From positions 1 through 11,705 of the forward strand of contig CABUTL010000021.1 in NCBI GenBank assembly GCA_902494375.1: a stretch of DNA of 11,705 nucleotides, in the 5' to 3' direction. Numbering within the stretch: the first letter of the stretch is position 1; every line of letters begins with the position of its first letter. This document shows positions 1,557-11,705 of this stretch, piece after piece. The notes below the pieces were generated by a model. The model ran no database searches. It saw only the letters and a program-made list of their open reading frames with translations, and was not told the DNA's origin. The stretch is from an uncultured Collinsella sp. GTDB taxonomy: Bacteria; Actinomycetota; Coriobacteriia; Coriobacteriales; Coriobacteriaceae. The translations under genes were made by a program, and so were the position numbers.

Positions 1557-2249
1557 ATGACGCTTGCCAAACCCATCAATAAATACATCGACTATATCGA
1601 TGCCCCCGAGGACACGTTTGAGCAGTATGTCGAGAAGGCGTTAAAGTACAACTTTCGCTGCGTATTTGCGAACCTTCAGGAGTACGAGACGGGCCGCGCC
1701 ATGCTCGAGGGCTCTGACATCATCCTTGCCGGCGCCATCGACTTTCCCCAGGGCACTATGACGCTTGAGGAGAAGCTTGCGAGGTTTGAGGAATACGCTG
1801 CGTGTGGCTTTACCGAGATTGACTACGTTTTGAATCAGGGGTCGATCGAGAACCGCGATTTTGATGCCATCGAGCGCGAGATGACTACCATTGCTGATTT
1901 TTGTCGCGCGCATGGCATCACTGACAAGGTAATCGTCGAGATGTGCAAGCTGGACGGCGACGACGCCGCCAAGCGCCGTGTATGCGAGATCGCGCTGGAG
2001 GCCAAGCCGGGATTCCTTAAGACATCGACCGGCAGAAGCTTTGGCGGTGCTAAGCTCGAGGACGTGCGGCTGATGCACGAGGTGCTCGGCGATGCCGTGG
2101 CAATCAAGGCGGCGGGCGGTATCCATAATTACGAAGAGGCTTGCGCATTCATCGAGGCCGGCGCCAGCGCGTTAGGCGCATCGGCGGGCATCGCGATCGT
2201 CGAGGGCGCACCGACGGATGAGCGTCGCTGGCAGACGTATTTGACCTGA
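1557..2249 (+). CDS. deoC: Deoxyribose-phosphate aldolase (DERA, class I)
   Basis: DERA reversibly cleaves 2-deoxyribose 5-phosphate to glyceraldehyde 3-phosphate and acetaldehyde, linking deoxynucleoside salvage to glycolysis in the cytoplasm. The 230-residue length is normal for this TIM-barrel family. The Schiff-base lysine is in FLKTSTG (Lys155). The proton-relay partners fit Asp89 in EIDYVLN and Lys184 in IKAAGGI, and GASALGASAG near residues 202-211 matches the phosphate-binding end of the barrel. AAGGAGG lies six bases before the ATG, fixing the start. No other deo genes (phosphorylase, phosphopentomutase) are visible here. The downstream neighbours are two HAD phosphatases, so it may act in general sugar-phosphate metabolism. 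The family assignment is firm; its control is not evident beyond the inverted repeat upstream. Confidence 0.93.
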   Translation: MTLAKPINKYIDYIDAPEDTFEQYVEKALKYNFRCVFANLQEYETGRAMLEGSDIILAGAIDFPQGTMTLEEKLARFEEYAACGFTEIDYVLNQGSIENRDFDAIEREMTTIADFCRAHGITDKVIVEMCKLDGDDAAKRRVCEIALEAKPGFLKTSTGRSFGGAKLEDVRLMHEVLGDAVAIKAAGGIHNYEEACAFIEAGASALGASAGIAIVEGAPTDERRWQTYLT

Positions 2250-2380
2250 GCGATAAAGCTTCACGACCACACGCCGTTCATGTTCGAGACAATATGACTT
2301 TTTGCCCGTTGTAAACGGAGTCGCGATGGGTGTTCTGTATGATGGCTCAGACAAGGTTGTTCAATGACAGGGAGGCATAT

Positions 2381-3223
2381 ATGGCAATCAAAGCCATCGC
2401 GATGGATATCGACGGTACGCTCACCAACGATCAGAAAGTGATTAGCCCGCGTACGCGCGAGAAGCTGCTCGCGGCGCAGGAGTCGGGCATTAAGCTCATC
2501 TTGGCTTCGGGCCGTCCCGCATGGGGACTGCACGCCTTGGCGCAGGAGCTCGACCTTCAAAACCATGACGGTCTGCTGGTTGCCTTTAATGGCGCGCATG
2601 TGGTCGACGCTCAGACCGATGAGGTCCTTTTTGACCAGGCTATGCCGGCTGACGAGCTGCACCGTCTGATTGATCACCTGCGTAATTTTGACGTGATCCC
2701 TATGATTTCGCTCGGTCGCGATTTGCATGTCGTGGATTCGTATCACTGCATGATCACGCTGCCTGACGGCTCGCAGAAAAACATCGTCAAATACGAGCGC
2801 GATGCGTGCGATCTTAAGATTCGCGAGGTGGAGAGCCTGCATGAGGTCGCTGATGCTTATCCCGTGGACAAGCTGCTGACGGCGGGCGATCCGGCCTACC
2901 TGCAGGCGCATTACGAGGAGATGTATGCGCCCTTTAAGCAGACGCTTTCGGGCATGTTTACGGCCGACTGGTACTTTGAGTACACGGCGCCCGGTATCGA
3001 CAAGGCCCGCGCACTCGAGGGTGCCCTGCCCAAGCTCGGCATCGATGCCAGTGAGGTCGTATCGTTTGGCGACGGCCAGAACGACAAGTCCATGATTGAG
3101 TGGGCCGGCACCGGTGTTGCCATGGGTAACGCCGTCGAAGAGGTTAAGGCTGTAGCCCAGATGGTGACCGCCGATAACAACGAAGATGGCATTGCGGTGG
3201 CGCTGGATAAGCTGCTGGGTTAG
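2381..3223 (+). CDS. Cof-type HAD phosphatase
   Basis: This is a HAD-superfamily hydrolase of the Cof/YidA type (subfamily IIB), 280 residues long, normal for the group. Such enzymes dephosphorylate sugar phosphates, flavin precursors and other small phosphates; the substrate cannot be inferred here. Motif I is DIDGTLT (nucleophile Asp9, acid/base Asp11), motif II is LASGRP (Ser43), the motif III lysine is Lys208 in GIDKARAL, and motif IV is FGDGQND (Asp231, Asp235). The cap domain lies between motifs II and III. I chose the ATG at 2381 because AGGGAGG precedes it and the protein then begins directly with the first beta strand; an in-frame extension to 2330 has no such support. It lies 131 bases after deoC, and CCGTT-GTA-AACGG (2306-2318) plus TATGAT (2338-2343) in that gap hint at a separate weak promoter. 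Confidence 0.9.
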   Translation: MAIKAIAMDIDGTLTNDQKVISPRTREKLLAAQESGIKLILASGRPAWGLHALAQELDLQNHDGLLVAFNGAHVVDAQTDEVLFDQAMPADELHRLIDHLRNFDVIPMISLGRDLHVVDSYHCMITLPDGSQKNIVKYERDACDLKIREVESLHEVADAYPVDKLLTAGDPAYLQAHYEEMYAPFKQTLSGMFTADWYFEYTAPGIDKARALEGALPKLGIDASEVVSFGDGQNDKSMIEWAGTGVAMGNAVEEVKAVAQMVTADNNEDGIAVALDKLLG

Positions 3224-3246
3224 AATCGCCGATTAATGCATGGCTC

Positions 3247-3275
3247 GGGCGCCTGCTTGCGGGCGTCCTTTTGTT
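3247..3275 (+). terminator. Hairpin terminator between the two HAD genes
   Basis: GGGCGCC (3247-3253) pairs with GGCGTCC (3262-3268), with one G-T pair, and is followed by TTTTGTT. The downstream gene's ribosome binding site begins only a few bases later, so the hairpin may partly uncouple the two HAD genes instead of ending the operon completely. Confidence 0.55.
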
Positions 3276-3287
3276 AGGGAGGGTGCC

Positions 3288-3947
3288 GTGTCCGCATTTC
3301 CGTTCGACGCCGTTATCTTTGACATGGACGGCGTCATTGTCGATACCGAGTATTACTACTTGGGCGAGACTGCCGCGTTTGCCAAGGAGCTTGGACTTAA
3401 TCTGACTCAAGAGGAGTTGAATGGGCAGGTCGGTACCTCGCATCAGTTCTTCCTGCATATGCTGGTCGATTGGTTTGAGCGCGCCGGTAAGGGACACTTC
3501 ACTGGCGAGGAGGCGTTGGCCCGTTGGGACGAGTGGGCGCATAAGCGTCCGCGTGACTATCAGGCTTTGATTAACCCAGGCGCCGTGGATACGATTCGAG
3601 AGCTGCCGCGCCGTGGCGTTCGCGTGGCGCTTGCCAGCTCGTCTCCCATGGTTAGCATCGAGGAAGTGCTCAACGCATGCGGGCTGTCTGATGCCTTTGA
3701 GTATGTGGTGAGCGGCGAGCAGTTTAAGGAGAGCAAACCCGAGCCCGACATCTACCTGCATGCGCTGGACCTGCTGGGGCTGCCCGCGAATCGTTGCTGC
3801 TGCGTTGAGGATTCCGTTCCGGGCATTACCGCGGGTAAGCGAGCCGGCCTGACGGTCATTGCCAAGCGCGAGGAACGCTTTGGCTTTAGCCAGGATGCCG
3901 CGGACAAGATTATCGACCAGCTGCCGGAGCTGCTCACGCTTTCTTAG
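3288..3947 (+). CDS. HAD hydrolase, beta-phosphoglucomutase-like (subfamily IA)
   Basis: This 219-residue HAD hydrolase has a small helical cap inserted after motif I. Members include beta-phosphoglucomutase and 2-deoxyglucose-6-phosphate or other sugar-phosphate phosphatases. Motif I is FDMDGVIVDTE (Asp12, Asp14), motif II is ASSSP (Ser117-119), the conserved lysine is Lys150 in ESKPEPDIY, and the acidic motif is VEDSVPGI (Glu174, Asp175). The cap covers roughly residues 18-90. The GTG at 3288 is preferred because AGGGAGG precedes it and it gives the usual short N-terminus before motif I; upstream in-frame codons overlap the terminator hairpin. The DGVxxDTE motif and length fit phosphatase and mutase members equally well, so the reaction is left open. 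It follows the Cof-type gene by 64 bases. Confidence 0.88.
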   Translation: MSAFPFDAVIFDMDGVIVDTEYYYLGETAAFAKELGLNLTQEELNGQVGTSHQFFLHMLVDWFERAGKGHFTGEEALARWDEWAHKRPRDYQALINPGAVDTIRELPRRGVRVALASSSPMVSIEEVLNACGLSDAFEYVVSGEQFKESKPEPDIYLHALDLLGLPANRCCCVEDSVPGITAGKRAGLTVIAKREERFGFSQDAADKIIDQLPELLTLS

Positions 3948-4097: not shown

Positions 4098-4841
4098 ATG
4101 CCACCGACTGAAGGGCTAACTGACGGTAAAGCAGCGATACCGCTGTACCGACAGGTCATTGATATCATTAAAAACGAAATCAACTCCGGCGCCTACAAGG
4201 CAGGCGCGCGGATACCCAACGAATTCGAATTGGCTGAGAGCTATAAAGTTGGCCGCGTTACCGTGCGACGCGCTATTGAGGAGCTCGTCCAGCAGGGCTA
4301 TCTAACGAAGCGACAGGGGAAAGGCACGTTCGTCAATGCCCCCAAGCTCAAGCGCAAGATTCGCCAGAAGGATGACGTCCAGAGTTTTTCGGACGCATGC
4401 CGCGTTAACGGAATGGAACCGGGGGCGTGTGTCATTTCGAGAAAGATACTGCCGGCGGATTCTACCGAAGCACAGTTCTTTGGTGTTCCCGTTGGAACTG
4501 ACTTGATTTGCGTCGAGCGTGTGCGTACTGCCGATGGCGTCCCCGTCATGCTTGAGAACAACATATACGTTTACGAGGACAACGCCTATCTATCAACGGC
4601 GCCTCTATCTAACCAATCCATTTTTGAGTTCGTGCGCAACCAGACTGGCCGCATGCCCGCGTTTACCGACCCGTGCACGCTCGAGATCGCGTGCGCATCG
4701 CCCGAGGTCGCTCGGTTGCTGGCGGTTCCCGTTGGCGAACCCTTGTTTTATATGGAAGCCTTCTTTTTCGATGAGCAACGGCGGCCGTTTATCATCGGTC
4801 GTCAGCGGATCGTTGGGTCTCGCTACGTTTTTGACATCTAG
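4098..4841 (+). CDS. GntR/HutC-family regulator, candidate controller of the Amadori operon
   Basis: This 247-residue protein has the standard HutC layout. Residues 15-80 are an N-terminal winged helix (PLYRQVIDIIKNEI, then RIPNEFELAESYKVGRVTVR, then GYLTKRQGKGTFV). Residues 95-243 are a UTRA effector domain (IYVYEDN, SIFEFV, LLAVPVGEPLFYME). HutC members usually repress neighbouring catabolic genes until a metabolite, often a phosphorylated sugar or amino-acid derivative, binds UTRA. GGGAGAGGG precedes the ATG at 4098. The gene lies in the same direction as the transporter operon, separated by 218 bases with its own hairpin and a second promoter, so it is probably a separate transcript. GntR regulators of this class (FrlR, FraR) serve the known fructoselysine and fructose-asparagine loci, which fits. 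The ligand, a phosphorylated Amadori compound, is inferred. Confidence 0.9.
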   Translation: MPPTEGLTDGKAAIPLYRQVIDIIKNEINSGAYKAGARIPNEFELAESYKVGRVTVRRAIEELVQQGYLTKRQGKGTFVNAPKLKRKIRQKDDVQSFSDACRVNGMEPGACVISRKILPADSTEAQFFGVPVGTDLICVERVRTADGVPVMLENNIYVYEDNAYLSTAPLSNQSIFEFVRNQTGRMPAFTDPCTLEIACASPEVARLLAVPVGEPLFYMEAFFFDEQRRPFIIGRQRIVGSRYVFDI

Positions 4842-4852
4842 GACATTGCGAA

Positions 4853-4890
4853 TGGAAACGCCCGGTGGATCATCTCACCGGGCGCTTCCA
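4853..4890 (+). terminator. Long hairpin after the GntR gene
   Basis: TGGAAACGCCCGGTG (4853-4867) pairs with CACCGGGCGCTTCCA (4876-4890) with a single A-C mismatch and an eight-base loop. It lies 11 bases after the GntR stop codon and separates it from the operon promoter. No T-run follows, so termination would depend on stem strength or another factor. Confidence 0.5.
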
Positions 4891-4893
4891 TAC

Positions 4894-4919
4894 CGTTCAC
4901 GGCGCGAACGCGACCGTTC
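4894..4919. promoter_or_regulatory. Cluster of GAACG half-sites upstream of the operon promoter
   Basis: CGTTC (4894-4898), GAACG (4906-4910) and CGTTC (4915-4919) alternate in orientation, and ACCGTTCA is repeated exactly 21 bases apart (4893-4900 and 4914-4920 region). The same GAACG core recurs twice at the transcription start. This suggests an upstream regulator site that may act together with the downstream one. The evidence is sequence symmetry only. Confidence 0.35.
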
Positions 4920-4951
4920 AACCGCGTTGCGGCAATCAGTTTGAAATTATC

Positions 4952-4980
4952 TTGATGACGGGAAAAGCTGCTGGTAATCT
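4952..4980 (+). promoter_or_regulatory. Sigma70 promoter of the Amadori operon
   Basis: TTGATG (4952-4957), a 17-base spacer and TAATCT (4975-4980) form the best promoter match in the window. Transcription should begin near 4987, giving a leader of about 73 bases before the transporter ATG. Confidence 0.65.
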
Positions 4981-5000
4981 ATAGAACGTCATAGAACGTT
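4981..5000. promoter_or_regulatory. Tandem 10-bp repeat at the start site, candidate operator
   Basis: ATAGAACGTC and ATAGAACGTT are adjacent ten-base direct repeats differing only in the last base. Within them AACGT-CATAGA-ACGTT also forms an inverted repeat. They begin directly after the -10 element and cover the predicted start site, a classic repressor position. The neighbouring GntR/HutC protein is the obvious candidate to bind. Confidence 0.5.
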
Positions 5001-5021
5001 TGCCTTATGCAAGCGTTGAAG

Positions 5022-5041
5022 CGAGATGCGATGCAGTCTCG
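5022..5041 (+). other. Leader hairpin just before the transporter ribosome binding site
   Basis: CGAGATGC and GCAGTCTCG pair around GAT with one bulged G. The hairpin ends about ten bases before GGAGG of the transporter gene and could affect transcript stability or translation. No function is demonstrated. Confidence 0.3.
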
Positions 5042-5059
5042 AGTTCTTTGGAGGTATCT

Positions 5060-6523
5060 ATGTCAGATACGAAGGCGAAGAAGACAAACAGACGTTTTAA
5101 GTTCAAATTACCGCATGTCTATACGATCATGTTCTTGCTGATCGTTGTCTTTGCGGTCCTGACTTGGATCGTTCCCTCGGGTCAGTATCAGCGCAAGACG
5201 ATTTCGACAGCGGCGGGCGAGCGTGAAGTCGCCGTTGCTGGAACCTATGAACAGGTCGATAAGAACTACACCGATTCCGAGACCGGCGAGACCATCAATC
5301 TGGGCCAGGATATCTTTGCGGTCCTGCAAGCGCCTACTAAGGGCATCCAGGAGGCTGCCGACGTCGTTGCGTTCGTCTTATTGATTGGCGGATCGTTCGC
5401 AGTCATCACCAAGACCAACGCTTTGAATGCCGGCATGAGCCGTGTGATTAAAAAGCTCAAGAACAAGGACATCCTCATCATTCCCATTACGATGACGTTG
5501 CTGTCCATTTGCGGCACTACGTTTGGCATGTCTGAGGAAGCCCTGCCGTTCTATGCCATCTTCATTCCCATCATGATGGGTATCGGTTATGACTCGATGA
5601 CGGCGTTTATCATCTGCTTCCTTGGTCCTAACCTGGGATATTGTGCTTCGACCATCGACCCGTTTAATGTTTTGATCGCCCAAGGCATCATTGGTATCGA
5701 GGGCAATCCTCAGCTGTGGCTGCGCGCCGTTTCTTGGGTCATCTTCACTGCCGTCGGTATCGCGTGGGCCATGCGCTATGCCATGCGTGTCAAGAAAAAC
5801 CCCGAGTCGTCCATTACGTACGAGGACGACAAGCTCAAGCGTGTTGAGTTTTCCGTGACCGATGCCTCCATCGAGGAAGAGTTCACTACCCGTCAGAAGC
5901 TCGTGCTTATCGATTTTGCCTGCGGTATGGGCATTATCGTCTGGGGTCTTGTTACCCAGGGCTGGTACATGAATGAGATTTCCGCCGTGTTCCTTGGTAT
6001 GGGCTTGCTTGCCGGTATCCTGGGCGGCCTTGACCAGCAGACGATCGCCGAGGAGTTCGTTAAAGGCATTGCCGACTTTGCGTACGCCGCCATCGTCATC
6101 GGCATCGCTCGCGGCATCTTGGTCATTGCAGAGGGTGGCATGATCATCGACACCATCCTCCAGGCGCTCGCTACTGCACTGGCCGGTGCACCTGCCGCCG
6201 TCTACACCACGTTTATGTATATCGTCCTTGGCCTGCTCTCTTTGCTGGTTCCCTCGAGCTCTGGACTTGCGGCGCTCACCATGCCCGTCATGGGTCCGCT
6301 GACCGAGCTTATGGGCCTCAATCCCGAAGCCGCCGTTACCGCGCTCCAGTTTGCTAATCAGACCATCAACACCATCAGTCCCGTGGCGGGCATGACGGTT
6401 GCCGGTCTTGCCGTGGCAAAGATCTCGTTTGGCCAATGGTGGAAGACCATTTGGAAGTTCTTCATTTTTATGGTCGTCTTTGGCCTGATCGTAACGGCAA
6501 TCTCTGGCATGCTTCCGGTGTAG
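5060..6523 (+). CDS. YfcC/DcuC-family membrane transporter, probable importer for the operon
   Basis: This 487-residue inner-membrane protein belongs to the YfcC / C4-dicarboxylate anaerobic carrier (DcuC) family. A basic N-terminus (KAKKTNRRFKFK) precedes the first membrane helix (about 18-38), which ends in the family's WIVPSGQY signature. A soluble loop containing VAGTYEQV comes next, then many hydrophobic segments with LLIGGSFAVI, GTTFGMSEEALPFY, PSSSGLAALTMP and a C-terminal helix. The P/S/G-rich re-entrant stretches are typical of this family. Family members carry dicarboxylates, amino acids or peptides. Being the first gene behind the operon promoter, it likely imports the operon's substrate, which I infer to be an Amadori compound; no PTS or ABC importer is present. 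GGAGG precedes ATG 5060, and an extension to 5000 would overlap the candidate operator. The next gene starts nine bases after the stop. Confidence 0.85.
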   Translation: MSDTKAKKTNRRFKFKLPHVYTIMFLLIVVFAVLTWIVPSGQYQRKTISTAAGEREVAVAGTYEQVDKNYTDSETGETINLGQDIFAVLQAPTKGIQEAADVVAFVLLIGGSFAVITKTNALNAGMSRVIKKLKNKDILIIPITMTLLSICGTTFGMSEEALPFYAIFIPIMMGIGYDSMTAFIICFLGPNLGYCASTIDPFNVLIAQGIIGIEGNPQLWLRAVSWVIFTAVGIAWAMRYAMRVKKNPESSITYEDDKLKRVEFSVTDASIEEEFTTRQKLVLIDFACGMGIIVWGLVTQGWYMNEISAVFLGMGLLAGILGGLDQQTIAEEFVKGIADFAYAAIVIGIARGILVIAEGGMIIDTILQALATALAGAPAAVYTTFMYIVLGLLSLLVPSSSGLAALTMPVMGPLTELMGLNPEAAVTALQFANQTINTISPVAGMTVAGLAVAKISFGQWWKTIWKFFIFMVVFGLIVTAISGMLPV

Positions 6524-6532
6524 GTGGTTGTG

Positions 6533-8116
6533 ATGTCTGATCGTTTAACGGTCCTGACGTCTAAGAGCGTCTTTACCGGTACGGGGGACCTGCCGTTTGA
6601 AGGTTTCGTAGCGGTCCGTGGCAATCGAATTGAGGCGGTTGGCACCAAGTGTGAGGTGGCTTCGTATTTGACCCAGGCGGACGAGGTAGTTGATCTGGGC
6701 GACCGCACCGTCATGCCTGGTCTGATCGATGTACATACCTTCTATACAGGCTGGGCGCTGCGGACGTTGGGGTCTGATCTGTCCGGCATCGATGATGCCA
6801 AAGAGGCCGTGTCGCTCTTGCGTGCATGGAAAGAAGATCATCCGGATTGCGCGGCGGCTTTTGGCCACAACCTATCCGAAACGTTGGCATCGGATGCCGA
6901 GAACGCAAATACGGCAGCTGTGTTTGACGAGTTTTTTGGTGATATCCCTGTCGTCTGCTTTACACCGGGCGCGGAGACCTGCGTTCTCAATGCTGCCGCC
7001 AGTGCGCGATACGGTTTTACACCGCAGGCGTGCTATGCCGAGAAGATCTGGCGCATGATGAGCGATTTCCTCGCGTTGCCCGAGGTGCGCGCGGGGTATT
7101 CGGACTACATGAGCATGCTTAACGAGCGCGGCGTTACCGCCATCAAGGAGATGGCGTTTGATGACTACTACGGCTTTGCCGACGAAATGGCTCGCCGTGA
7201 GGAATCTGGCGAGCTGACGGTTCGCGTCTCTATGATGTCGCAGCCGGTGGGCGCTGGTGCAAATCTGGCATATGCCCGCGAGGCACGAGAGCGCTTCCGG
7301 GGACCGTTCGTTCGTTTTTCTGGCTTCAACCGTATGACCGATCGCGGCGTATGGGCGGGGCTTGCCGAGATGATTGACCCCTATGAGGATACGGCCGATG
7401 CGGGCGCTGCCGGCAAGACGGTCGTCGAGGAGCCAGAGTGGGATCTGATTGAAAGCGAGCTGCGTGCAATTGATGCTGACGGCTTCCGATATTCCTTGCA
7501 TTGCCAGGGTGATGGCGCCGTTCGTCGCACCGTGGCGCTCTATGCCTCGCTGCCTCGAGACGAGCATGGACGGATGCTTCGCCGCCATGCGATTACCGAT
7601 CTCGAGAACTCTGACCCGACCGATCTTGTCGAGTTTGGCAAGTTAGGTGGAATTTGCGAGGTCTATCCGCAGATTCTGACGCTGGACCGGCGCGAGGATT
7701 GCCTGTCGATGATGCGTCGACAAATTGGCGAGACGCGACTTTTGCACAGCTGGAATCGCCGCGGCATGGAAGATTCCGGATGCACGGTGTGCTGTGGAAC
7801 GGATTTGCCGCTGTTGATTCCGAGCCTGGGCGAGTCAATCTACAGCGCGTGCGGCGGATTCTTCGCCGACGGACTGCCCGTGAATGAGGTCAACACGCTG
7901 ACGCTTGTCGAGCTCTTGCGCGCTTGGACTGCCGGGGGCGCGTACGATCTGATGCGCGAAGATGAGCTGGGTACGCTCGAGGTCGGCAAGCTTGCCGATA
8001 TCTGCGTGCTCGATCGGGATGTGTTTGACCTCGATTATCGCGACGCACGCGATCTTGCGGTTGATATGACGATGTCGGACGGACAAATCGTGTTCGATCG
8101 AAATAAGGAGGCATAA
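6533..8116 (+). CDS. Divergent YtcJ-like amidohydrolase (Amidohydrolase family 3)
   Basis: This 527-residue cytoplasmic protein has the composite beta-sandwich plus TIM-barrel layout of metal-dependent amidohydrolases. The N-terminal sandwich contains RGNRIEAVG and leads to VMPGLIDVHTF at residues 60-70. The C-terminal sandwich contains GTLEVGKLADICVLDRD. Usual metal ligands are seen as His68, His323 (LHCQGDGAV), His352 (RRHAITDLE) and Asp424 (GTDLPL). The second His of the HxH motif is Phe70, and the lysine usually found in the YtcJ GxKxxxDG segment aligns with Asn266 (GFNRMTD). The metal centre is therefore probably altered. Family enzymes hydrolyse amides, N-acyl groups or cyclic amides. 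Its place between an importer and Amadori enzymes suggests it removes an amide or acyl group from the adduct, but the substrate is unknown. AGGTGG before ATG 6533 favours this start over GTG 6524. Confidence 0.85.
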   Translation: MSDRLTVLTSKSVFTGTGDLPFEGFVAVRGNRIEAVGTKCEVASYLTQADEVVDLGDRTVMPGLIDVHTFYTGWALRTLGSDLSGIDDAKEAVSLLRAWKEDHPDCAAAFGHNLSETLASDAENANTAAVFDEFFGDIPVVCFTPGAETCVLNAAASARYGFTPQACYAEKIWRMMSDFLALPEVRAGYSDYMSMLNERGVTAIKEMAFDDYYGFADEMARREESGELTVRVSMMSQPVGAGANLAYAREARERFRGPFVRFSGFNRMTDRGVWAGLAEMIDPYEDTADAGAAGKTVVEEPEWDLIESELRAIDADGFRYSLHCQGDGAVRRTVALYASLPRDEHGRMLRRHAITDLENSDPTDLVEFGKLGGICEVYPQILTLDRREDCLSMMRRQIGETRLLHSWNRRGMEDSGCTVCCGTDLPLLIPSLGESIYSACGGFFADGLPVNEVNTLTLVELLRAWTAGGAYDLMREDELGTLEVGKLADICVLDRDVFDLDYRDARDLAVDMTMSDGQIVFDRNKEA

Positions 8117-8117
8117 G

Positions 8118-8969
8118 ATGTCTGAATCCAAGCCGACGCTGCGCCGCGAACAGATTGCGGGCATGAATATCCACTACATCATGTGGTCGCTCGATTACTT
8201 CCTTGATGTGCAGCAGCGTTTGGGCTTTGAGTCCATTGAGCTGTGGTGCGCAGAGCCGCATGTGACGCTCGACCATACGGGCTACTTTGAGGCTGAGGTC
8301 CTGGCGAAAAAGGCTGCAGACCGTGGGCTTAGGTATCGTACTCTGTGCCCCGAGAATGTTGTCTATCCTTGGCAGTACTGCGCACGCAAGCCGCTGCATG
8401 AACAGCGCAGCCTGGCGTACTTTAAGCACGGCATTGAGCTTGCCGAGGTACTTGGGTGCGACCGTATGTCCGTCAACTCGGGCTGGGGCGACTGGGACGA
8501 GGACCGCGAGGAAGCCTGGAAGCGCAGCCGCGAGCACTTGTCCATTCTGGCGGAGTATGCCGGCGAGCACGGTCTGGTGCTTACGATGGAAAGCCTGCGT
8601 CCCGAGGAGAGCAACCTTGTGACGACGGTTTCCGATGCGAAGCGCATGATTGACGAGGTCGCGAGCCCGTATTTACAGCCCATGGTTGATACAACCGCGA
8701 TGGGCGTTGCTGGCGAGACGCTCGAGGACTGGTTTGCCACCTTTGGTGATGGGGCAATTCACGAGATGCACTTTATCGACGGTGACCCGTATGGCCATCT
8801 GGTGTGGGGCGATGGCAAGCACGATATGGACGCCTTCGTTGCCACACTCAACGTCCATGGTTTCGACGGCATGCTGGGCCAGGAAATTACGGACGGCCGT
8901 TACTACGATGACCCGGCGGCGGCTGATGCCAAGAACATGGCCGCATTCGAGAAATATCTGATTGACTAA
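8118..8969 (+). CDS. FrlC-like sugar epimerase (AP_endonuc_2 TIM barrel)
   Basis: This 283-residue protein is a sugar phosphate isomerase/epimerase of the xylose-isomerase-like TIM barrel. By eye it resembles E. coli FrlC, which interconverts fructoselysine and psicoselysine. Shared features are GFESIELWCAEPH, the motif ESLRPEESN, and the probable metal ligands Glu158, Asp191 (MVDTTAM), His218 (MHFIDGD) and Glu256 (GQEITDG). HLVWGDGKHDMDAF resembles the FrlC segment HYIPGEGKMPL. AAGGAGG (8105-8111) lies within the end of the amidohydrolase gene, and the ATG follows its stop after one base, so the two are likely translationally coupled. In this operon it would let the cell use the C3-epimer (psicosyl or allulosyl form) of an Amadori product. 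Other sugar epimerase activities remain possible, as this family is broad. Confidence 0.85.
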   Translation: MSESKPTLRREQIAGMNIHYIMWSLDYFLDVQQRLGFESIELWCAEPHVTLDHTGYFEAEVLAKKAADRGLRYRTLCPENVVYPWQYCARKPLHEQRSLAYFKHGIELAEVLGCDRMSVNSGWGDWDEDREEAWKRSREHLSILAEYAGEHGLVLTMESLRPEESNLVTTVSDAKRMIDEVASPYLQPMVDTTAMGVAGETLEDWFATFGDGAIHEMHFIDGDPYGHLVWGDGKHDMDAFVATLNVHGFDGMLGQEITDGRYYDDPAAADAKNMAAFEKYLID

Positions 8970-8979
8970 AACAACTATC

Positions 8980-9010
8980 GGCCACGCAACCAACGTCATT
9001 GATTGCGGCC
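8980..9010 (+). other. Hairpin between the epimerase and deglycase genes
   Basis: GGCC-AC-GCAA (8980-8989) can pair with TTGCGGCC (9003-9010), leaving two bulged bases and a 13-base loop. It sits in the operon's only sizeable gap (62 bases). No T-run follows, so it is more likely to affect transcript processing or stability than to terminate. Confidence 0.35.
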
Positions 9011-9031
9011 CAAACAAGAAAGGAACTGGAT

Positions 9032-10000
9032 ATGAACGCACGCGATCTGATCAAAGAGGCAATTGCCGAGAAGGGCAAGTTCGACAGCGTCTACTGGATT
9101 GCTTGCGGTGGCTCCATGATCGATTTGATCCCGGCTCATGAGCTTCTGCAGCGCGAGGCAACCACCTTCACTTCGTATATCTATACCGCGCGTGAATTCG
9201 ACATTATGCGTCCGCGTCGTCTGGGCGAGAAGTCCCTGGTCATCGCTTGTAGCCACAGCGGCAATACCCCCGAGGTCGTCGAGGGCTGCGAGATTGCCCT
9301 TGCTGCTGGCGCTACGGTGATCGCCCAGACCGACAACGCTGGATCCAAGATTGACTCCGGCAAGTGGACCACGTGGGTCTACCCATGGGGCGAGGGCGTG
9401 CCGCAGGCCGAGGTCCCCGCTGGCATTTCGCTGTCGCTTGCGGCAGAGCTGCTCGATCAGCAGGAGGGCTACGCCGATCTTGCCGATATGTATGCCGGTA
9501 TCGCCGAGATGGATAAGATTCTTCCCCCGGCACGCGAGAAGGTAAATGCCGAGCTGGGCGATCGCTTTGCCAAGCTTTGCCAGGAGCACGAGTTCTTCTA
9601 TATTCTGGGCAGCGGTCCCAACTTTAGCCAGACCTACGGTTTCGCTATCTGCTCTCTTATGGAGATGCAGTGGCAGCACTGCAGCTACATTCACTCTGCC
9701 GAGTACTTCCATGGCCCCTTCGAGGCTACTCAGGATGGCGTTTTTTACTTCCTGCAGATGGGCTCCAGCGAGTGCCGTGCTATGGACGAGCGCGCCCTGG
9801 CGTTCCTTAAGACGCATACCGATACGCTGATGGTGCTCGATGCCAAGGAGTACGGTATGGAAGCCGTGCCGGCGAGCGTCCGTGCCTATCTGGACCCGGT
9901 GCTGTTCTACGCCATGAACTGCGAGCTGCGTGCCGCACGCGGCAAGGTGTTTGATCACGATCCCGATTTCCGTCGCTATATGGGTGTTGTCGAGTACTAG
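9032..10000 (+). CDS. Two-SIS-domain Amadori 6-phosphate deglycase (FraB/FrlB-like)
   Basis: This 322-residue cytoplasmic enzyme has two SIS domains. The first holds YWIACGGS (21-28) and CSHSGNTPE (73-81); the second holds YILGSGP (190-196). FrlB and FraB cleave 6-phosphorylated Amadori adducts to glucose 6-phosphate and the free amino acid. From memory, the match to Salmonella FraB is notably close: LMEMQW, HSAEYFHGPFE, MDERALAFLK and VLDAKEYG have direct counterparts, and the C-terminus RRYMGVVEY is shared in style with both FraB and FrlB. Glu211 and His227 align with FraB's catalytic Glu214 and His230. ATG 9032 has AAAGGAA upstream and gives the family's short N-terminus; a TTG at 8999 is less likely because it lies in the hairpin. 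FraB acts on 6-phosphofructose-aspartate and FrlB on fructoselysine 6-phosphate; which fits here is undecided. Confidence 0.9.
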   Translation: MNARDLIKEAIAEKGKFDSVYWIACGGSMIDLIPAHELLQREATTFTSYIYTAREFDIMRPRRLGEKSLVIACSHSGNTPEVVEGCEIALAAGATVIAQTDNAGSKIDSGKWTTWVYPWGEGVPQAEVPAGISLSLAAELLDQQEGYADLADMYAGIAEMDKILPPAREKVNAELGDRFAKLCQEHEFFYILGSGPNFSQTYGFAICSLMEMQWQHCSYIHSAEYFHGPFEATQDGVFYFLQMGSSECRAMDERALAFLKTHTDTLMVLDAKEYGMEAVPASVRAYLDPVLFYAMNCELRAARGKVFDHDPDFRRYMGVVEY

Positions 10001-10014
10001 AAGGAGCAAAGGCC

Positions 10015-10878
10015 ATGGCATTTAACGTTAACGCGCTCGGATTTGGCGACAACGTCGTCGATCGCTACGAGCATATCCACACCATGTATCCCGGCGGCAA
10101 TGCGGTGAACTTCGCCGTTTATGCCAAGAAATGCGGTGCCGCACGCTCCGCATACATGGGCATTTTTGGCAATGATGCCGCTGCCGAGCATGTCATTGCA
10201 AGCCTCGAGGATGAGGGTATCGAGCTTGACAAGTGCGAGCAGATGATTGGCGAGAACGGAGCGGCTCGCGTGACCGTCGTTGACGGTGACCGTGTCTTCC
10301 TTGGCTCCAACGAGGGCGGTATCCGTGGCGATGCGCGCTATGTCCTCGATCGCTTTGACCTTTCGTACATGAAGCAGTTCGATGTGGTTCATTCGGGCAA
10401 CTATTGCTTTACCGAGCGCGAGCTGCCCAAGTTGAAGGCTGCGGGCGTCACGGTCTCTTTTGACTTTTCGGACGACTCTACCGACGAGTACTACGAGCAG
10501 ATTGCGCCCTACGTCGATTTCGCTTTCTTTAGTGCGGCGGATGCTGCGAGTGAGGATGAGGTTCGCGAGCGTCTGGCATGGGTGAAGGGCCTGGGTCCGC
10601 GTTTTGTGTCGGCTACGGCGGGCGCCGAGGGCTGCATTGCTTACGACGGCGATCGTTATTACCGCCAGCTGGCTAAACCGGTAACGGACATGAAGGACAC
10701 CATGGGGGCGGGCGACTCGTTCCTTACCTCGTTTTTGATGTGCTATCTCGATTCCGCCAAGCGTGGTGAAGATGGCGCCGAGGCCATCGAGCGCGCGCTC
10801 GACTTTGCTGCCGGGTTTGCCTCGACCGTGTGCGGCATGGAAGGTTCTTGGGGCCACGGAGCACCAATCGTCGAATAG
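10015..10878 (+). CDS. FrlD-like PfkB sugar kinase (Amadori compound 6-kinase)
   Basis: This 287-residue ribokinase/PfkB-family kinase resembles E. coli fructoselysine 6-kinase FrlD. The N-terminal GFGDNVVDRY and PGGNAVNFAVY (26-36) match FrlD's GDNCVD and GGNAVNVAVY. The C-terminal PfkB signature DTMGAGDSF (228-236) contains the anion hole and the catalytic base Asp234. VSFDFSDD (147-154) also has an FrlD counterpart. It should phosphorylate the sugar C6 hydroxyl of an imported Amadori compound using ATP, giving the substrate for the deglycase encoded 14 bases upstream. AAGGAG directly follows the deglycase stop and fixes the ATG at 10015. It is somewhat longer than FrlD (about 260 residues), with extra residues at the C-terminus. 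It is the last gene of the operon. A generic fructokinase role is less likely given the neighbours. Confidence 0.9.
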   Translation: MAFNVNALGFGDNVVDRYEHIHTMYPGGNAVNFAVYAKKCGAARSAYMGIFGNDAAAEHVIASLEDEGIELDKCEQMIGENGAARVTVVDGDRVFLGSNEGGIRGDARYVLDRFDLSYMKQFDVVHSGNYCFTERELPKLKAAGVTVSFDFSDDSTDEYYEQIAPYVDFAFFSAADAASEDEVRERLAWVKGLGPRFVSATAGAEGCIAYDGDRYYRQLAKPVTDMKDTMGAGDSFLTSFLMCYLDSAKRGEDGAEAIERALDFAAGFASTVCGMEGSWGHGAPIVE

Positions 10879-11000: not shown

Positions 11001-11705
11001 TTAGCGAAGGCAGCGAAGGTCAAAAACATAGTGCGCATTTGCTAAAACTATCGACTCGATGCGCTTTGCGTCGCAGTTTTTGAGCGAGGTGATGCGTTCT
11101 GAGGTCCTTGTGAGCGACCTGATGAGCGACTGCGTGCTTGTTTCTGTGTTTGGCTCGGCCGGCGCATCGGTCTCGAGCAGTAGGCGGTCGAGTGGAATCT
11201 GTCGTGCGTATTCGCGACAGCGCTTGGTCGCGAGCATGCGTTCGTTGACGGAAAAATAGCAGCCCGCATTACGCGCGCGGGTGAGTTCGTCCGAAGTGCC
11301 GCTAAACCAGTGGAAGATGATAGCGGGGGAGTCGGGGTTTGGGATGAGTAGTCCATGCGATTCGAGGACGTCCAGTACGGCTCCTGCCGAACGAACGGCG
11401 TGAATTGATATCACGCGCCCGGTAAGAGGATGCTGCACGAGCGCATCGCAGAGCCGGTTAAGTGCCTGTATTTGTAGCGGCTCACTTCCAGCAAAGCGCG
11501 CGGAAAAGTCGAGTCCGACTTCGCCGATGTAGCGTTCTTGGGCAGCAACTTCGCAAAGCAGATTGACTTCGGCAAAACCGCAGTGGCCATCGGCGAGCCA
11601 CCAGGGGTGAAGCCCAACGCCGGCGATGATGCCCGGGTGGCGACGAGCGCGCTCGTTTGCGGCCGAAAAGTCGCGTGGATCGACGCCGCAATCAAATAGA
11701 CCCAA
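11001..11705 (-). CDS. TatD-family metal-dependent DNase, N-terminus beyond the right edge
   Basis: These 234 residues form most of a TatD-type TIM-barrel hydrolase, a family of metal-dependent 3'-5' exonucleases implicated in DNA repair. Visible family features are FDCGVDPRDF near the edge, GVGLHPWW, the metal-ligand glutamate in YIGEVGLDF, histidines in ISIHAVRS and IIFHWFSGT, and the aspartate in LLLETDAP. A typical TatD protein is about 255-265 residues, so roughly 20-30 are missing, including the N-terminal HxH metal motif. The TTG at 11705-11703 reads as an internal leucine, not a start. The stop TAA is at 11003-11001, ten bases from the palindrome. The gene converges on the Amadori operon and is probably unrelated to it. 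The C-terminal segment is rich in Thr, Ser and Arg and diverges from the family. Confidence 0.85.
   Translation of the reverse strand: MGLFDCGVDPRDFSAANERARRHPGIIAGVGLHPWWLADGHCGFAEVNLLCEVAAQERYIGEVGLDFSARFAGSEPLQIQALNRLCDALVQHPLTGRVISIHAVRSAGAVLDVLESHGLLIPNPDSPAIIFHWFSGTSDELTRARNAGCYFSVNERMLATKRCREYARQIPLDRLLLETDAPAEPNTETSTQSLIRSLTRTSERITSLKNCDAKRIESIVLANAHYVFDLRCLR

Follow-up and report, generated by a model that had tools for sequence, protein, structure and literature searches.

A probable fructosamine utilisation operon of Collinsella that includes an amidohydrolase-fold protein with a remodelled metal site

Six genes lie head to tail on the forward strand at positions 4098–10878 of contig CABUTL010000021.1, from an uncultured Collinsella sp. 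(assembly GCA_902494375.1; the stretch analysed, here called the window, comprises 11,705 nucleotides). We propose that they form an operon for the utilisation of fructosamines (Amadori compounds), a reading to which we would assign a probability of about three in four. The list of open reading frames (ORFs) and the Pfam and NCBIfam matches agree with the families and positions assigned to this locus in an earlier, sequence-only reading. The operon comprises a GntR/HutC-family regulator with a UTRA domain (4098–4841; PF00392, 71.5 bits; PF07702, 80 bits), a YfcC-type importer (5060–6523; PF03606, 372.6 bits), an Amidohydro_3-fold protein (6524–8116, with an alternative ATG start possible at 6533), an FrlC-like sugar epimerase of the xylose isomerase fold (8118–8969; PF01261, 117.8 bits), a predicted fructosamine-6-phosphate deglycase with two SIS domains (9032–10000) and an FrlD-like PfkB kinase (10015–10878). 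From yfcC onward the genes are separated by 0, 1, 62 and 14 bases, in keeping with the tight operon next to a HutC-family regulator described earlier. The system appears to be neither frl nor fra proper, since the fructoselysine (frl) families are the top matches of its enzymes but score below their cut-offs, and since the deglycase is nearer to two solved chains that we take to be Salmonella FraB and Bacillus subtilis FrlB than to Escherichia coli FrlB.

For the kinase, the top NCBIfam match is fructoselysine 6-kinase (FrlD, NF007321), with 184.2 bits against 51.6 for the next family; the deglycase is best matched by fructoselysine 6-phosphate deglycase (FrlB; 109.1 against 29 bits) and the epimerase by fructoselysine 3-epimerase (FrlC; 94.5 against 44 bits). 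Identity to the E. coli proteins is 27% for FrlC, 30% for FrlB, 36% for FrlD and 28% for FrlR. Compared with solved chains, the deglycase gave phmmer scores of 193 bits for PDB 3eua and 190 bits for 9otj; by BLASTP these two, which are partial chains, are 36% (194 bits) and 38% (193 bits) identical to it, as against 30% (115 bits) for E. coli FrlB. The former is annotated as a putative fructose-aminoacid-6-phosphate deglycase, and we take it to be B. subtilis FrlB. The latter is named just 'SIS domain protein' but would be Salmonella FraB, because the Glu at its catalytic position is numbered 234 in a chain of 345 residues, matching Glu214 plus an assumed 20-residue tag, and because one PDB entry has Ala at this position. 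Glu211 and His227 of the window deglycase stand at the catalytic positions, aligned with Glu234 and His250 of 9otj and thus with what we take to be the catalytic Glu214 and His230 of FraB; the pair had been correctly recognised in the sequence-only reading. It is present in 18 of the 18 SIS proteins aligned. GlmS also has it, so that the pair alone is not diagnostic. FraB-likeness was judged by pairwise scores and motifs, the SIS tree being arbitrarily rooted, with very long branches for E. coli FrlB and for a single distant SIS protein and with unsettled basal forks. The epimerase, a member of the xylose-isomerase-like barrel family, shares with E. coli FrlC the Glu, Asp, His and Glu positions that are presumably its metal ligands, and the kinase carries a DTMGAGD motif. 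Taken with the GntR regulator, these three enzymes argue for the earlier suggestion of a variant pathway for a sugar–amine adduct in a gut bacterium.

The gene set is not confined to this contig, and the unusual composition once ascribed to it was not borne out. An SIS protein 99–100% identical to that of the window occurs in eleven Collinsella loci (L001–L011), six of them named C. aerofaciens, with the gene order kept as far as the contigs extend; the window DNA thus resembles that of C. aerofaciens, and the closest of the genomes compared shares 50% of sampled words with it. The module is also found in Enorma, in Atopobium oral taxon 810, in other Coriobacteriia including the probable Olsenella uli and Coriobacterium glomerans genomes and, without FrlC, in a metagenome-assembled genome of Acetivibrio. 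A 550-kb record of Klebsiella pneumoniae shows the order SIS–PfkB–amidohydrolase–YfcC–GntR in a stretch that also carries pyrBI and argF, a further match is listed for a 5.4-Mb K. pneumoniae record, and a Citrobacter freundii plasmid has the same five genes. Identity of the Klebsiella and Citrobacter proteins to those of the window is 38–39% for GntR, 47–48% for YfcC, 33–34% for the amidohydrolase, 42–43% for SIS and 46–47% for the kinase, and FrlC is absent among the annotated genes of both stretches. The Citrobacter plasmid (L091) is named pA-NDM-202212, and an IS26 transposase gene lies 1.2 kb 5′ of its module. On a Leclercia plasmid the SIS protein and the kinase are accompanied by a binding protein of the ATP-binding cassette (ABC) type, with no YfcC or amidohydrolase annotated, a 1.4-kb gap before a transposase aside. 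This recurrence, which the sequence-only reading had proposed to look for, suggests that the arrangement is more than chance. According to the part of a paper on Klebsiella Kp13 consulted here, a fructosamine deglycase/kinase pair, possibly that of the present K. pneumoniae module, is hypothesised in that strain (PMC3904158).

A sample of 296 genomes, of a class that would be Coriobacteriia, was searched with the SIS protein and the kinase (E up to 1e-60) and with an amidohydrolase profile (E up to 1e-80), and pairing was counted from positions. The SIS query was matched at 50 places in 33 genomes, the kinase at 38 places in 32 genomes and the amidohydrolase at 26 places in 23 genomes. A window-type kinase adjoins a window-type SIS gene at 30 of the 50 SIS places. 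YfcC stands beside 26 of these 30 pairs, the exceptions being L127–L129 and the G057 version, which has the amidohydrolase and no yfcC in front; the amidohydrolase is present at 21. The nine pairs without it comprise two loci with GntR–YfcC–SIS–PfkB alone (L130, L131), three flanked by DeoC and HAD genes, with neither YfcC nor amidohydrolase in the stretch (L127–L129, of which the first two show phosphotransferase system (PTS) genes, one tested being a sorbose-type IIC, the third being at the end of a contig), and four that represent a second Collinsella version, YfcC–FrlC–SIS–PfkB, from which the amidohydrolase is cleanly missing. Unlike these four, L086 has the amidohydrolase between yfcC and frlC. 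A frameshift or an assembly error splits yfcC over two frames in the second-module copies of G021 and G257 (L087/L066, L137). Versions that lack FrlC are those of O. uli, G145, G156, G137 and G218; G223 and G057 have two copies of it. The usual core is GntR–YfcC–SIS–PfkB, with FrlC and the amidohydrolase as variable additions.

The remaining 20 SIS places (74–77% identical) have no window-type kinase beside them, and in 20 of 20 loci compared of this lone-SIS type (L013–L030, L033, L034) a GntR gene (59–62%) lies directly 5′. One of them (L020:7101–9701), a second Collinsella operon, combines GntR (about 61%) and SIS (77%) with a following PF04199 cyclase/arylformamidase-like gene and has the same type of operator as the window; it possibly belongs to the same regulon as the window-type operon. 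Among the lone kinases, four were examined: those of G167, G193 and G220 are intact and lie directly after a HAD gene, with the genes from GntR to SIS absent, and that of G082 is broken and accompanied by a fragment of yfcC. The former arrangement, with an intact kinase of 94–95% identity, is that of loci L125, L126 and L133. All 26 amidohydrolase places have SIS genes close by: at 21 the window-type SIS is present, and five lie in another SIS-rich cluster, whose SIS proteins were confirmed by Pfam in all five stretches; FrlC- and PfkB-like genes lie nearby in two of these genomes, G145 and G156.

The label 'YtcJ-like amidohydrolase' given to the third gene product named the fold family correctly but hides a metal site that has been largely replaced. 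The canonical set of HxH, Lys, His, His and Asp, which we take to be the metal ligands of binuclear Amidohydro_3 hydrolases, is kept in full in 14 of 14 HxH paralogues; the window protein has instead HxF, Asn269, His326, Asp359 and Asp427. PDB 3igh and 3icj are the closest solved Amidohydro_3 structures; judged against the HxH paralogues of the family, the HxH motif, the Lys and the strand-6 His are the parts replaced. The pattern is nearly invariant across the HxF clade, in which the second His of HxH is missing and Tyr381 present in 287 of 287 proteins, Asp359 replaces the strand-6 His in 285, and a single member of the canonical Lys/His pair is kept at positions 269 and 326 in 284. The nearest folds are hydrolases and deaminases, and no obvious signal peptide was seen by eye. 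The database cluster nearest to the window protein represents 23,239 sequences, and Klebsiella-type relatives (about 42–54%) occur in Paenibacillus, Bacillus, Neobacillus and Fontibacillus (P0136–P0184).

At least five database entries (P0193, P0232, P0219, P0233 and P0234) carry a PfkB domain C-terminal to a protein of this clade; they were taken from the best 120 of 237 and the best 120 of 260 matches. P0233 and P0234 match the whole Amidohydro_3 model, P0193 and P0232 its later part only, and P0219 is without the N-terminal part. An apparent fusion of amidohydrolase and FrlC (P0060) was rejected, as by eye it reads as a frame-shifted run-through. Two of the fused kinase domains were tested, and with 352 and 338 bits they pass the fructoselysine 6-kinase cut-off of 247 bits. 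Optional presence together with fusion to the kinase would fit an accessory step upstream in the pathway.

The regulator is 28% identical to E. coli FrlR and 38% to its Klebsiella homologue. About 60 bp 5′ of the yfcC start (ATG at 5060, with GGAGG just 5′), a direct repeat, ATAGAACGT-c-ATAGAACGT, is a suggestive operator candidate on the forward strand: ATAGAACGTCATAGAACGT at 4981–4999 is the sole match in the window at up to three mismatches, where 0.01 would be expected. Related sites also precede homologous operons. Of 14 upstream regions, eight, including three near-identical lone loci, contain the pattern TAKRACNNNNTAKRAC without mismatch, and ten have it with at most one; two further regions, one from Klebsiella, have two mismatches, and the O. 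uli region and that before the Klebsiella regulator have four. When those ten regions were shuffled by dinucleotides, 0 to 7 of 200 shuffles did equally well, as against 19 and 31 of 200 for the two regions with two mismatches. Three Collinsella genomes carry a related pattern (at most one mismatch) four times each, including two occurrences 5′ of the lone SIS gene and one 5′ of yfcC, and backward-read controls in the same genomes gave 0, 1 and 1 matches. A spacing of 11 in place of 10 was rejected, since most regions then scored no higher than the majority of their shuffles. Between the regulator and yfcC there is also a 16-bp inverted repeat (4852–4891), a possible terminator or attenuator stem with no T run.

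Several observations weigh against the fructosamine reading or against parts of it. None of the four matches to FrlC, FrlB, FrlD and YfcC in the operon reaches its NCBIfam equivalog cut-off (305, 430, 247 and 500 bits, respectively), and the NCBI model for YfcC (NF008611, matched with 328.4 bits) names a putative basic amino acid antiporter. The amidohydrolase-fold protein is without most of the canonical metal ligands, and hydrolysis by it is therefore not assured. It is missing at 9 of 30 SIS–PfkB pairs, and 8 of 38 window-type kinases (one of them broken) have no adjoining window-type SIS gene; the parts are therefore not obligatory partners. As for the operator, the motif was derived from the same regions on which it was scored, so that the evidence is suggestive only; moreover, O. 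uli yfcC has no such site in front of it, and the motif is weak in Klebsiella.

Among the closest known systems is the fructose-asparagine (fra) locus of Salmonella (fraR, fraBDAE), which likewise has a GntR regulator, an importer, a kinase, a deglycase with the Glu/His pair (FraB, presumably the 9otj chain that the window deglycase resembles) and an enzyme for an amide. As described in the consulted parts of two papers, however, FraA is a DcuA-family transporter, FraE is a periplasmic asparaginase that converts fructose-asparagine to fructose-aspartate before uptake, and no frlC is included (PMC12755824, PMC4072780), whereas the window has a DcuC/YfcC-type importer, an amidohydrolase-fold protein and an FrlC-like gene. 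The Pfam matches of the window transporter, the only one in the operon, are to DcuC (PF03606) and weakly to DctM, with none to DcuA, and no asparaginase family is among the Pfam and NCBIfam matches of the operon proteins. With E. coli frl (frlABCDR) the window shares homologues of the deglycase, epimerase, kinase and GntR regulator; it differs in having YfcC in place of FrlA, an added amidohydrolase, the regulator upstream, and scores below the frl equivalog cut-offs. YfcC and the amidohydrolase thus fall outside the classic sets, as had been remarked, at least as these are described in the portions of the fra papers cited. The idea of such a composition is nevertheless not without precedent, since fra has functional counterparts in its DcuA-family transporter and its amide-acting asparaginase. 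The B. subtilis frlBONMD-frlP operon encodes a deglycase that would be close to that of the window, if 3eua is indeed its FrlB, but it has an ABC importer and, as far as the available description goes, no amidohydrolase or FrlC (PMC12632257). The gfr operons of Salmonella and Faecalibacterium prausnitzii, which encode deglycases for fructoselysine and glucoselysine, rely on PTS uptake, and the excerpt at hand mentions no YfcC or amidohydrolase (PMC12136445). We found no description of the set GntR–YfcC–Amidohydro_3–FrlC–SIS–PfkB in searches of one open library, as far as the texts were accessible.

The sequence shows how the genes are ordered, which families they belong to, their catalytic residues, their recurrence, the fusions and the operator candidate; the following substrate class, direction of transport, catalytic steps and regulation are what we infer. 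YfcC would import a glycated amino acid or one of its derivatives, and the amidohydrolase-fold protein would ready a variant form of the substrate inside the cell, in the simplest case by releasing it from an amide, a peptide or a lactam; by analogy with the asparaginase step of fra, it may thus convert a derivative into the kinase substrate. The FrlC-like enzyme would epimerise 3-epimeric (psicose-type) forms, PfkB would phosphorylate carbon 6, and the SIS deglycase would cleave the product to glucose 6-phosphate and an amine. The GntR/UTRA protein may repress at the repeat before yfcC until it binds a phosphorylated intermediate, a response adopted from that given for E. coli FrlR in the consulted part of PMC12632257. 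The same source, in the part used, has B. subtilis frl preferring alpha-glycated amino acids; because the deglycase resembles the B. subtilis type, the substrate may be alpha-glycated rather than epsilon-fructoselysine.

Alternatively, the operon could be an ordinary epsilon-fructoselysine pathway with swapped accessory genes, in line with the presence of an FrlC-like gene and with the naming of Collinsella, in the cited part of a study of infant stool genomes, among the genera with frlD homologues (PMC9749803). We consider this rather unlikely, as E. coli FrlB is the more distant relative of the deglycase (115 against 193–194 bits) and the window kinase falls below the FrlD cut-off. Moreover, a separate frl lineage exists in the class, because a second kinase of the Coriobacterium version (L078; 256 against 247 bits) and the FrlD and FrlC proteins of G156 (385 and 445 bits) do pass their cut-offs. 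Work by Wolf et al. (2019, Cell Host Microbe) reportedly dealt with Collinsella and fructoselysine and may overlap with the Collinsella locus. Far less probable still is a pathway for an unrelated amino sugar or phosphosugar. The SIS and PfkB families are broad, and the related cluster L081 has a ROK protein and several SIS proteins, but the top NCBIfam families are fructosamine enzymes, both fused kinases tested pass the FrlD cut-off, and the nearest solved deglycases are 3eua and the presumed FraB rather than enzymes of unrelated amino sugars, homology to which the sequence-only reading had named as speaking against its proposal.

Two further alternatives leave the fructosamine pathway in place and concern the amidohydrolase-fold protein. 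It may be no hydrolase at all, but an enzyme with one metal or none that isomerises or epimerises the ketosamine before the kinase acts, by means of the putative residues Lys208, His355, Asp359, Glu361 and Tyr381. The near-invariance of the HxF pattern and the fusion directly upstream of the kinase make this a serious, if not the favoured, possibility; on the other hand, its nearest folds are those of hydrolases and deaminases, and mononuclear amidohydrolases such as NagA hydrolyse amides despite a reduced ligand set. It is improbable that the step catalysed by the protein follows deglycation and has the freed amine, such as a lactam or ring amide, as its substrate: its absence from some otherwise similar operons would suit an optional downstream step, but the fusion to the kinase fits a step next to phosphorylation. 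Within the fructosamine reading, it is tempting to speculate, though we hold it less likely than not, that a further widespread class of fructosamine pathway, with a GntR–YfcC–SIS–PfkB core, has recruited a new enzyme with a rebuilt dinuclear centre (HxF, Asp359, Lys208, Tyr381), which would perform an undescribed step on glycated amino acids and is fused to the kinase in some bacteria.

Upstream of the operon, on the same strand (1557–3947), lie genes for DeoC (above its NCBIfam cut-off), a Cof-type HAD protein and a second HAD phosphatase, which may be part of a wider neighbourhood because such genes also flank SIS–PfkB in L127–L129. At the right edge (11001–11705) is a TatD-family nuclease gene whose best NCBIfam match is QatD; a Qat defence system was rejected at 162.6 bits against a cut-off of 230, and is also disfavoured by TatD-like ORFs 3′ of other Collinsella loci (L002, L088, L125, L133). 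A second kinase match (28–31%) lies just 3′ of three Collinsella modules (L001:9975–10691, L005:9975–10580, L007:5958–6674), and there is no such gene in the window. Elsewhere the module is followed by a second kinase, an Amidohydro_2 protein and a UPF0047 (YjbQ) protein (L078:12445–16967, L074:2144–4213), in L078 also by BtpA and FGGY proteins, a tail that the window lacks. No Rfam family reaches its gathering score in the window, the promoter scan was uninformative (2 found, 4.4 expected), and terminator-like signals numbered 8 against 7.3 expected.

The heating of food gives rise to Amadori compounds, whose fate in microbes has been followed through genes of the frl and fra types. Since the window enzymes score below the frl equivalog cut-offs, a separate type of operon that is common in gut Collinsella would be missed at these cut-offs. 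The similar operons with and without the amidohydrolase provide a natural experiment on the function of this protein, whose rebuilt active site makes it a good case in which to study novel chemistry on an old fold. If the proposed pathway is correct, the gene set would let Collinsella use sugar–amino acid compounds from heated food.

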